31,810 bases of DNA, from positions 1-31,810 of IMG/VR virus record IMGVR_UViG_3300002145_000107; one strand, given 5' to 3'. Shown one piece after another: positions 28,292 to 30,815 of the stretch (position 1 is the stretch's first letter; each line of letters begins with the position of its first letter). The notes beneath the pieces were generated by a model, which was not told the DNA's origin, did no database searches, and was given only the letters and a program-made list of their open reading frames with translations. A program made the translations under genes and the position numbers. This stretch comes from a virus.

Positions 28292-28534
28292 TTAGGCGGC
28301 TTGGGTGGGTTCGCCGAAAATATCTGGGCGTAAGTCGTAACGGGTTACTTGAGCTTTTGTAGCCACCTCGATTGGCAAGCAGTGATGCCCTGGCACTGGC
28401 TTTAGGCCCGTATACCAATGGCTAACTTGCGCTTGCTTTACTTTCCGATCATCGGTGCTGATCGCTTCAGCGAATGCTGTTTGAGAATCGAAAAGATCTA
28501 CAGCGGCTTGAATTGGGGTTTTTTCATCGTTCAC
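28292..28534 (-). CDS. Cro/YdaS-like regulator
   Basis: An 80-residue HTH protein of the YdaS/Cro type: AAVDLFDSQTAFAEAISTDD, then VKQAQVSHWYTGLKPVPGHH with the recognition helix, and a C-terminal VTRYDLRPDIFGEP segment, which is the usual ending of this family. It is the first gene of the leftward early operon and lies just after the left operator cluster, opposite to the repressor. It should oppose the repressor at the shared operators. Start: GTG at 28534 with AGGAG nine bases upstream. Confidence 0.8.
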   Translation of the reverse strand: MNDEKTPIQAAVDLFDSQTAFAEAISTDDRKVKQAQVSHWYTGLKPVPGHHCLPIEVATKAQVTRYDLRPDIFGEPTQAA

Positions 28535-28567: not shown

Positions 28568-28596
28568 ATATTACTAGCGGTATTATTTTAAGTCAA
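28568..28596 (-). promoter_or_regulatory. Leftward early promoter (pR-like)
   Basis: On the minus strand TTGACT (28591-28596), 17 bases, TAATAT (28568-28573). The spacer and -10 box overlap operator OR1 and the -35 box meets OR2, so repressor binding would block it. It drives the Cro-like gene and the early operon. Confidence 0.65.
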
Positions 28597-28631
28597 TACC
28601 GCCGGTAGTTGTTAATATTATTAGCGGTATT
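28570..28631. promoter_or_regulatory. Left operator cluster (OR-like), three 15-bp operators
   Basis: ATTACTAGCGGTATT (28570-28584), AATACCGCCGGTAGT (28595-28609) and ATTATTAGCGGTATT (28617-28631) are variants of the palindrome AATACCRSCGGTATT, spaced 25 and 22 bases centre to centre. They fill the gap between the divergent Cro-like and repressor genes. The third copy ends just before the repressor start, suggesting autoregulation. Confidence 0.75.
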
Positions 28632-28644
28632 CAAAATGCGTTAT

Positions 28645-29043
28645 ATGAACATCGACGCCCGAAAAAAAGAACTATCCCCCGAGGATAAAGCCATATGCGC
28701 TAATTTGCGTAGAATATGGGACGCAAAAAAGAAAGTGCTAGGCCTATCTCAACTACAAGCCGCTCAGCACCTCGGTATTACCCAGGGCGCCATCAGTCAT
28801 CAACTCCAAGGCCGCAACGCACTCCATACGGATGCGATAATTCAGTGGGCAGAGCTACTGCAATGTAGTGAGCAGGACATTGATCCGAATCGGCAATACT
28901 TTTCTGGTAGCGGTAATGCTCAAGTGCAGCGAGAAATTTCTGAGATTCTTGAACGCGTAGGCCCGAAAAATCAGACGGCTGTAATGGCGATGCTTCGCAC
29001 GTATGTGGCTGAGTTAACTCGTCAAGACGACGCAAAAAATTAA
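28645..29043 (+). CDS. CI-like repressor, short form without peptidase domain
   Basis: A 132-residue protein with a Cro/CI-type HTH (GLSQLQAAQHLGITQGAISHQLQG, about residues 33-56) and a helical C-terminus (QREISEILERVGPKNQTAVM, then MLRTYVAELTRQDD). Full CI-type repressors are over 200 residues and carry an S24 autocleavage domain; none fits here. No Shine-Dalgarno site precedes either ATG (28636 or 28645). A -10-like CAAAAT at 28632-28637 would place the transcript start near 28645, so the message may be leaderless, as in lambda cI. It faces the Cro-like gene across the operator cluster. Confidence 0.75.
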   Translation: MNIDARKKELSPEDKAICANLRRIWDAKKKVLGLSQLQAAQHLGITQGAISHQLQGRNALHTDAIIQWAELLQCSEQDIDPNRQYFSGSGNAQVQREISEILERVGPKNQTAVMAMLRTYVAELTRQDDAKN

Positions 29044-29104
29044 GAAAGTCGCGCTGTTCGGAATCACTCATGAGCGCGAGGGTTTGTTTTAACATTTTGT
29101 CCAT
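28793..29104 (-). CDS. Candidate SOS-controlled small protein, antisense to the repressor gene
   Basis: A 103-codon frame from an ATG preceded by AGAGG at good spacing. The first 20 codons lie outside the repressor gene and encode an amphipathic helix (MLKQTLALMSDSEQRDFLNF). The rest overlaps the repressor 3' part by 251 bases on the other strand, so it may partly be a shadow frame. Upstream is a leftward promoter whose spacer is filled by a LexA box (29161-29190), with a leader of about 50 bases. Induction could make an antirepressor protein or an antisense RNA. Only the promoter geometry, the ribosome site and the N-terminus support it. Confidence 0.4.
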   Translation of the reverse strand: MDKMLKQTLALMSDSEQRDFLNFLRRLDELTQPHTCEASPLQPSDFSGLRVQESQKFLAALEHYRYQKSIADSDQCPAHYIAVALPTELSHPYGVRCGLGVDD

Positions 29105-29300: not shown

Positions 29301-29891
29301 ATGACTAAACCATGGATAGGAACAAAGGCATCTGATGATATGGCTGCAAGGCAAGAAGGCACGATAAACGCTATCTTAACAGGCGAACAAAAAGAATTTT
29401 GGGGCGACGAGATATTAGCGCTTGAAGATGATTCTGAAGCCAGGTACCAACTATCCTTAAATTACTTACCTTTGCCCGGTGCTTTTTTTCAGGCCGCTAG
29501 AGCCATGAGAGATGTAGTCAAAGCAAAAAGGAAGCTCAAGGAGAGCTACAAGGATGAGCTAACTAAGATCTACTGGCTAGCGGTAATATCTTCTTATGGT
29601 CTGCCGCGATCTAAACGCGCAGACACGGTGGGTTTTAATATTTTCGAGATAACCCCTGCGGAATCTCTTTTTTCACTGGATTTATCCTACAAAAAGTTTG
29701 GCTATGAAAAATTAACCCTGCTTACTGCTACTGATAAAAAGTGGATTATTGAGGCGTGGGGGGACAACAAGCGTCATTCAACCCTAAATTCTTCGGCAAA
29801 AGCTCTTTGGAGAGAAGCTGAAAATAGATACATAAAAGCCCAAAAGGATCGATGGGACGACATTTTTAAGCCAGAAAACTACTCTAAGTGA
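29301..29891 (+). CDS. Hypothetical protein in the rexA-like position (lysogenic cargo candidate)
   Basis: A 196-residue protein (MTKPWIGTKASDDMAARQEG) with AAGGA seven bases before ATG 29301. It is soluble, helical and rich in Lys, Trp and Tyr (IYWLAVISSYGLPRSKR, KKWIIEAWGDNKRHSTL). I know no family for it. It lies between the repressor and the right operator cluster, in the repressor's direction, where lambda has rexA. It may be expressed in the lysogen, with the SOS box region as a possible extra promoter. A superinfection-exclusion or defence role is plausible but rests only on position. Confidence 0.7.
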   Translation: MTKPWIGTKASDDMAARQEGTINAILTGEQKEFWGDEILALEDDSEARYQLSLNYLPLPGAFFQAARAMRDVVKAKRKLKESYKDELTKIYWLAVISSYGLPRSKRADTVGFNIFEITPAESLFSLDLSYKKFGYEKLTLLTATDKKWIIEAWGDNKRHSTLNSSAKALWREAENRYIKAQKDRWDDIFKPENYSK

Positions 29892-29978
29892 TGCACTAGA
29901 CCCTAGATCCAAGGAGAGGTGGTATTGGATACGCTTATTGATTTGGATTTATCTTGACGGAGATACAGGAGCAGTAGG

Positions 29979-30530
29979 ATGCATGATCGAATCTATGGGC
30001 CGGAGCACGCGGCACTCAGAAGCATATCCAATGTAGACCGACACCATGACCTTGCCACAGCAGTTGGTCGAGTAATAGGTAATTTCTCGTGCCTTGAGAC
30101 CAGTTTAATGCTGGTTTTTGGCCAGCTGATGCGTTGCGACCAGAGCAGAGGAAATATTGTTTTTCAATCCATTAACAGCATGGATGCGAAAATACGGCTT
30201 ACGAAAATGTTAGTCCGGGGCTTTGTTGAAGATCGAGAGCTAAAGGCGAAGTGCTATGAGCTATTAGCTCAAACAAGCAAGGTTAACTCTAGTCGAAACA
30301 AACTAGTACACGGCACGGTCGGCGGCAGACCGGAAGATGGCGGCTTCAAATTGATATCATCAAGACCGCCCAATGCGGACAGCAAAGAACTGTTCAAGCC
30401 TTCGCAGTCGATCGACGTAGACGCCATCAACGCCTTGGCCGATGACATATCCATCATAGACACTAGGCTCTCCCATTTATGGGTCTCACACGAGATAGTT
30501 CAGAAAGTATCAGCTCGACCACTCTGGTAG
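29979..30530 (+). CDS. HEPN-like protein in the rexB-like position (defence candidate)
   Basis: A 183-residue helical protein. The motif RNKLVH (Arg106 to His111), followed by Gly, fits the RX4-6H signature of HEPN RNases. Before it are long helices (RVIGNFSCLETSLMLVFGQLM, SMDAKIRLTKMLVRGF) of the kind found in HEPN-like proteins. HEPN proteins cut RNA in toxin-antitoxin and abortive infection systems, but some are inactive. It has AGGAG seven bases before its ATG and lies 87 bases after the 29301 gene, probably one transcript. Tandem terminators follow. The HEPN assignment is from the motif and helicity alone. Confidence 0.65.
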   Translation: MHDRIYGPEHAALRSISNVDRHHDLATAVGRVIGNFSCLETSLMLVFGQLMRCDQSRGNIVFQSINSMDAKIRLTKMLVRGFVEDRELKAKCYELLAQTSKVNSSRNKLVHGTVGGRPEDGGFKLISSRPPNADSKELFKPSQSIDVDAINALADDISIIDTRLSHLWVSHEIVQKVSARPLW

Positions 30531-30636
30531 CGATTTCTTCGTCGGGCAGCCTGAATCGCTCATCGTGGATATCACAATCAGCCAGCTCAGAAACGACCTT
30601 TTGAACCAGGTCGTTTTTAATTTTATCGTCAAGCAT
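30463..30636 (-). CDS. Small acidic protein, convergent with the HEPN-like gene
   Basis: A 57-residue frame from ATG 30636 with an AGG site upstream: MLDDKIKNDLVQKVVSELAD, then LPDEEIATRVVELILSEL. It is acidic and mostly helical, with the periodicity of a real small protein. Its 3' end overlaps the last 68 bases of the HEPN-like gene on the other strand. It could be a partner or antitoxin-type regulator of that gene, but no such family is recognised. No clear promoter is seen. Confidence 0.45.
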   Translation of the reverse strand: MLDDKIKNDLVQKVVSELADCDIHDERFRLPDEEIATRVVELILSELSRVRPINGRA

Positions 30637-30676
30637 AGATAACCTACCGTATCCCACCATTTGGATGATACAACAA

Positions 30677-30700
30677 GCCGCCCACCAAGGCGGCTTTTTT
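30677..30700 (+). terminator. Rightward intrinsic terminator (first of a tandem pair)
   Basis: GCCGCC, six bases, GGCGGC is followed by TTTTTT. It ends the repressor-side transcript after the HEPN-like gene and shields the right operator cluster, as lambda timm does. Confidence 0.85.
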
Positions 30701-30720
30701 GCGCCCTACCCTTTCCTCCA

Positions 30721-30745
30721 AACCGCCAAAGTGGCGGTTTTTTTT
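30721..30745 (+). terminator. Rightward intrinsic terminator (second of a tandem pair)
   Basis: AACCGCC, five bases, GGCGGTT is followed by a T-run to 30745. Two terminators in a row suggest that read-through into the early operon must be tightly prevented in the lysogen. Confidence 0.85.
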
Positions 30746-30774
30746 CGCCTGTGATTTGAGTATAGCAAAATAAT

Positions 30775-30813
30775 AATACCGGCGGTATTGACTTTAATAA
30801 TACCAGCGGTATT
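30775..30813. promoter_or_regulatory. Right operator cluster (OL-like), two 15-bp operators
   Basis: AATACCGGCGGTATT (30775-30789) and AATACCAGCGGTATT (30799-30813) are near-perfect palindromes, 24 bases apart, and match the three operators at 28570-28631. They overlap both boxes of the rightward promoter. The distance to the left cluster (about 2.2 kb) is close to that between lambda oL and oR, allowing repressor looping. Confidence 0.8.
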
Positions 30814-30815
30814 AT
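30788..30815 (+). promoter_or_regulatory. Rightward early promoter (pL-like)
   Basis: TTGACT (30788-30793), 16 bases, TATTAT (30810-30815). The first operator covers the -35 edge and the second fills the spacer. It drives the rightward genes from 30921. Confidence 0.7.

Follow-up and report, generated by a model that had tools for sequence, protein, structure and literature searches.

A HEPN-like gene and a convergent small open reading frame behind the repressor of a lambda-type phage: a possible module of Tha/Ith type

The window, by which we mean the whole stretch of 31,810 bases analyzed here (an IMG/VR virus record, on which all positions are numbered), ends on the right in a lambda-type immunity region (Table 1). 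From left to right, the region comprises a YdaS-family gene on the minus strand, a repressor gene that is divergent from it, two further plus-strand genes (gene 1 and gene 2), terminator stems, and a second operator cluster; rightward genes follow from 30921. Comparisons at the DNA level found no known phage that resembles this region. A domain search found no peptidase domain in the repressor, and no relatives of the repressor were found in viral contigs.

The operator motif AATACCGCTGGTATT has three copies in the interval from cro to the repressor gene and two in the second cluster, which overlaps a rightward promoter-like sequence (TTGACT-16-TATTAT, 30788-30815). With up to three mismatches allowed, the window contains 11 matches to this motif, versus 0.8 expected in shuffles. 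Given this layout, an earlier reading made from the sequence only was correct in assigning both genes to a position like that of rexAB: they lie between the repressor and the second operator cluster, run in the direction of the repressor, and are upstream of tandem terminators.

Table 1 Features of the immunity region, with transposon-type units that carry relatives of gene 2 on other contigs
Feature	Position	Strand	Basis
Cro-like regulator, YdaS family	28292..28534	-	PF15943 E 6e-16; phrog_35 E 1.8e-14
First operator cluster, three sites (28570-28584, 28595-28609, 28617-28631)	28570..28631	.	pattern scan
CI-like HTH repressor, 135 aa	28636..29043	+	HTH_3 E 2e-5; phrog_2328 repressor E 3.6e-6
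Gene 1, 196 aa, all-helical, unnamed mobile-element family	29301..29891 (ATG 29301, stop 29891)	+	translation, tblastn, alignment, AlphaFold
Gene 2, 183-aa protein, probably HEPN-like	29979..30530 (ATG 29979, stop 30530)	+	translation, family alignment
Codons for R106-N-K-L-V-H111 in gene 2 (candidate catalytic motif)	30294..30311	+	translation, family alignment
57-aa ORF (MLDDKIKNDLVQKVVSELADCDIHDERF...), candidate inhibitor in an Ith-like position	30463..30636	-	codon score
Terminator-like stem AAGCCGCC/GGCGGCTT with T-run	30675..30701	+	read directly in sequence
Terminator-like stem with T-run	30720..30740	+	sequence analysis
Extended -10-like TGCTATACT, candidate promoter of the 57-aa ORF	30759..30767	-	9-base match
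Second operator cluster, two sites	30775..30813	.	pattern scan
IS1595-type units with a gene 2 relative (examples from L131-L148)	L132:4921-6991; L132:7125-9212; L134:3502-5599; L139:222-1851; L140:4933-7138		

The translation of gene 2 contains the RNKLVH motif that had been reported at residues 106 to 111. Gene 2 has no significant match in Pfam, PHROGs, NCBIfam, or PADLOC; among solved structures, a profile search against the PDB returned nothing of note and no significant match. AlphaFold, run on the lone sequence without relatives, gave no meaningful fold (pLDDT 37, pTM 0.23). A weak tblastn match on Pseudomonas syringae plasmids seeded a profile, and the resulting alignment of 23 members, which are 12 to 28% identical to gene 2, has exactly three invariant columns, G30, R106, and H111. 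The closest member is L032, with 29% identity to gene 2 across 161 aligned columns (blastp E value of 8e-9 for the pair). A lack of Arg/His conservation in homologs had been named as grounds for refutation; both residues are kept in 23 of 23 members, a count to be read with the bias of profile searches toward members that keep the motif. Since these residues are invariant at such low identity, we consider the motif to be more than a chance occurrence. Residue 107 is N in 20 members and D in 2, and an acidic residue stands at the position of E40 in 22, although gene 2 itself lacks the K or R four residues on that the HEPN type (Ex3[KR]) would have.

The published HEPN signature is Rx4-6H with N, D, or H after the R (PMC3710099), which the motif of the gene 2 family fits. 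Compared with HepT-like HEPN proteins, which were taken from genomes by family, the profile of the gene 2 family gave a local match that is confined to 26 columns around the motif (E value of 1e-4 in a single comparison); the unrelated gene 1 family, used as a control against the HepT-like profile, gave an E value of 0.17. Single family members have subthreshold matches in Pfam and PADLOC, among them matches to several HEPN families (Cthe_2314, HepT, Apea, Csx1, and Csm6). The gene 2 family shares with the HepT-like, Cthe_2314-like, and Apea-like HEPN families (PMC3710099; PF01934, PF18730, PF18739) an Rx4H with N after the R, a conserved acidic residue upstream (in gene 2 not in the Ex3[KR] form), and a mobile, accessory distribution, whereas gene 2 has no significant match to the curated HEPN families, falls below every curated cutoff, and belongs to a diverse, unnamed mobile-element family of its own. 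From the motif and its conservation, we regard gene 2 as quite probably HEPN-like, and it is predicted to be a probable RNA-cutting RNase.

Relatives of gene 2 were detected in 5 of 369 Gammaproteobacteria genomes (profile search) and 15 of 190 Alphaproteobacteria genomes (refined profile), the genomes having been sampled from each class. None were found in 50,697 phage records or in scans of viral contigs, so a second phage with this arrangement was not found. The relatives have no fixed partner gene. Ten lie directly downstream of, and on the same strand as, an IS1595-family transposase, and in five of these ten, terminal inverted repeats around GATTRTATACTTGAC (approximately 18 bp) bracket the transposase and the HEPN-like gene in a unit of 1.9 to 2.3 kb; two copies have exact 8-bp target duplications (TTTTAAGG and GAAACAAG). 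In these cases, IS1595-family transposons carry a member of the gene 2 family as a passenger. No IS1595 terminal repeats were found around gene 2 within the window.

Other carriers include a conjugative plasmid, on which a gene 2 relative lies beside a second RN-motif protein, and another relative lies beside an HNH gene. On Pseudomonas syringae plasmids (L008:3224-4456), the relative follows an uncharacterized protein with an RNKIAGH motif after 15 bp, downstream of an SRAP gene. At L023:1125-8262, the genes in one same-strand row encode a gene 2 relative, a reverse transcriptase, two other proteins with RN...H, and one with an FRG domain; the row is possibly a defense island or a cassette array. 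These carriers and neighbors are the company of accessory conflict genes, which is not by itself proof of defense.

Such a distribution could also mean that neither gene serves phage exclusion and that both are transposon- or plasmid-derived passengers lodged in a transcribed, nonessential site. The transposon-borne relatives of gene 2, its near-neutral codon score, and the low G+C content of gene 1 (42% versus 51%) are all in keeping with this idea. We nevertheless consider it very unlikely, because strict retention of the Arg and His across so divergent a family implies a selected activity.

Gene 1, like gene 2, has no significant match in Pfam, PHROGs, NCBIfam, or PADLOC. Its relatives, at 31 to 42% identity, occur on enterobacterial and rhizobial plasmids (E value of 9e-32 by tblastn against plasmids), in a Nevskiaceae MAG and other genomes, and on two viral contigs. 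The family keeps W5, W34, P57-L58-P59, R70, G111, P119, G134, L140-L141, D145, and E151, and among these positions the family alignment reveals no catalytic-looking residue set. AlphaFold yields a good model (pLDDT 84, pTM 0.80) that consists of helices almost throughout. Foldseek found no match to it among solved structures at an E value of ≤1, and the best VIA-align Z score was only 5.4, to assorted helical proteins that name no family. Assignments of gene 1 as an MNT protein, a RexA-like protein, or a HEPN half were considered and rejected for want of support.

On one of the viral contigs (L010:2860-5471), the gene 1 relative follows an S24 (CI-like) repressor gene and a staphylococcal-nuclease-like gene and precedes a serine recombinase gene, which makes this contig a second, independent case of lysogeny-module placement for the gene 1 family. 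The relative on the other (L009) lies among tail genes. In three rhizobial loci (L007, L012, and L013, at about 5.6 to 7.6 kb), the gene 1 relative converges on one and the same AAA+ FtsH-like ORF, approximately 10 bp away. In IncC multiresistance plasmids (L002:6001-6564 and L130), it lies amid integrases, IS elements, and resistance genes.

The sequence-only reading had proposed that genes 1 and 2 form a two-component exclusion system, and a RexAB-like pair, with one protein sensing and the other killing, would fit two adjacent genes on the same strand in the operon position of rexA and rexB. The placement of a gene 1 relative behind a CI-like S24 repressor in a second virus is also in line with such a pair. 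The two genes were not found together in any other locus examined: no gene 2 relative was found near gene 1 in 13 other gene 1 loci or, at an E value of ≤1, in six whole genomes or records that carry gene 1, and gene 1 was absent from 22 gene 2 contexts. The claim of a pair fails on this lack of co-occurrence, which the sequence-only reading had itself named as the observation that would count against it, and we rejected the two genes as one unit. The 87-bp gap between them and the unrelated distributions of the two families also weigh against a RexAB-like pair, which we judge to be quite unlikely. The RexAB systems of lambda and Pseudomonas putida (PMC11077077, PMC12894663) likewise have two genes behind the repressor on the same strand; however, they combine a DNA-binding sensor with a membrane effector, while the window has a probable RNase without conserved pairing, and, in the searched libraries, neither of its proteins matches any established Rex family. 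Genes 1 and 2 are most readily understood as two separate cargo genes carried in one lysogeny operon. By position and analogy, an exclusion function for this cargo is plausible.

Many HEPN proteins are toxins of toxin-antitoxin systems (PMC3710099), for which plasmids and transposons are typical carriers. A further hypothesis is that gene 2 is a maintenance gene of this kind, with gene 1 or the small antisense ORF described below as the antitoxin, in which case it would stabilize the prophage and any exclusion would be incidental. We found no adjacent MNT nucleotidyltransferase gene of the kind that accompanies HEPN toxins in HEPN/MNT systems; the neighbors of gene 2 are gene 1 and the small ORF. 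The hypothesis appears unlikely given that gene 1 is not an MNT protein, that it does not co-occur with gene 2, and that relatives of gene 2 have no fixed partner.

A feature missed in the sequence-only reading, and a more informative partner for gene 2 than gene 1, is a small minus-strand ORF whose tail overlaps that of gene 2 by 68 bp. Its first 35 codons lie outside gene 2 and, scored with codon frequencies from the phage's other genes, reach 12.2 bits, a value attained by 0 of 74 spurious ORFs in the window, while true genes average 7.6 bits at the same length. The score over all 57 codons was reached by 0 of 54 spurious window ORFs. Judging by codon use, which resembles that of the phage's own genes, this ORF is likely a real gene. 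Searches found no homologs of it. The candidate promoter is weak, since the window contains no more matches of the TGCTATACT type than expected by chance. The operator at 30775-30789 would contain its -35 region, and the repressor could therefore control the antisense ORF. The terminators of gene 2 have T-runs on the plus strand alone, so transcription of the minus strand could pass through them. We also searched the intergenic gaps for an RNA antitoxin (AbiF-like) and found folding no better than in shuffles, no Rfam family over its cutoff, and no tandem repeats of note.

The arrangement resembles Tha/Ith, a system of Staphylococcus aureus prophages in which Tha is an RNase that aborts infections and loses its defensive function with the substitution H270A (PMC11087260). 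Ith, which is expressed once the cI operon is silent, switches Tha off at induction and prevents autoimmunity (PMC11087260). In the record of Staphylococcus phage 80alpha, the cI operon ends with tha (301 aa, HEPN motif R265NSIMH270), which ith (66 aa) faces from the opposite strand. Both loci have a gene with a HEPN-type RNxxxH motif behind the repressor (tha in 80alpha and, as gene order and operators indicate, the HEPN-like gene 2 here), and in both a small convergent gene overlaps its 3' end, by 64 bp for tha/ith versus 68 bp in the window. They differ in that Tha has 301 aa with a C-terminal HEPN domain, whereas gene 2 has 183 aa and lacks the separate N-terminal region of Tha, and in that ith adjoins int in 80alpha, whereas the ORF in the window adjoins the second operator cluster. 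Gene 2 and Tha align at the motif only (blastp E value of 1.5; 10.7 bits with the family profile), and the antisense ORF has no similarity to Ith. Because no sequence similarity extends beyond the motif, the likeness is probably convergent.

Given that order, orientation, and tail overlap are the same as in tha/ith of 80alpha, we postulate that gene 2 and the antisense ORF may form a Tha/Ith-like module, which would work like Tha/Ith without being a member of that family; we assign this reading a probability of roughly 0.4. The principal alternative is that gene 2 encodes a HEPN-type RNase that is expressed in the lysogen and achieves exclusion by itself, the antisense ORF being a chance or unrelated feature and self-immunity being provided otherwise, for example, simply by shutoff of the repressor operon. 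This alternative draws on the same evidence from motif and position and agrees with the failure to find a homolog of the antisense ORF, but it leaves unexplained why the codon use of that ORF exceeds that of every spurious window ORF and is typical of true genes; we consider it somewhat unlikely.

For the Tha/Ith-like module, we propose the following scheme. Gene 2, as a prophage-borne RNase of HEPN type, would be transcribed behind the repressor in the lysogen, where the enzyme would remain inactive or at a tolerated level until triggered by an infecting phage, whereupon it would cut RNA and abort the infection. At prophage induction, transcription of the repressor operon would stop, and the antisense gene would then be read toward gene 2 from the operator region. 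It could disable the RNase through its protein product, antisense transcription, or both, so that the phage could grow. Gene 1 would be separate cargo of the same lysogeny operon. We infer the RNase activity, the expression in the lysogen, the antiphage role, the trigger, and the role of the inhibitor from the motif, the position, and the analogy with Tha/Ith.

Two other prophage genes invite comparison. STM14_3211 of prophage Gifsy-1 is alike by description, being a predicted HEPN protein in a variable region of a lambdoid prophage, where its role was not established (PMC9879122). BstA (PMC8585504) is likewise a prophage-encoded defense with a device that spares its own phage, but it belongs to another protein family, and its self-immunity device is a DNA element rather than a convergent gene.

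For very few prophages is it understood in detail how an abortive RNase can be carried without self-destruction at induction. Our broadest proposal, which we offer tentatively and consider rather doubtful in its entirety, is that a lambda-type phage has arrived at the Tha/Ith solution without detectable homology, by combining a lysogen-expressed HEPN RNase, from a new family otherwise found on plasmids and IS1595-type transposons, with a tail-overlapping gene for a new inhibitor that disarms the RNase at induction. If this is true, a defense gene plus a convergent self-immunity gene would be a recurrent design; an independent case of this geometry would point to a general rule, and small ORFs over the tails of lysogeny-module genes would be a way to find more. 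The analysis also brings to notice a large HEPN-like family that has no name and is spread over several kinds of mobile carriers.

A second minus-strand ORF (MDKMLKQTLALMSDSEQRDFLNFLRRL..., 28793-29104) starts just beyond the repressor stop and overlaps the 3' end of the repressor gene; it has a good Shine-Dalgarno-like sequence (AGAGGTGG) and a codon score of 5.3 bits over 35 codons.
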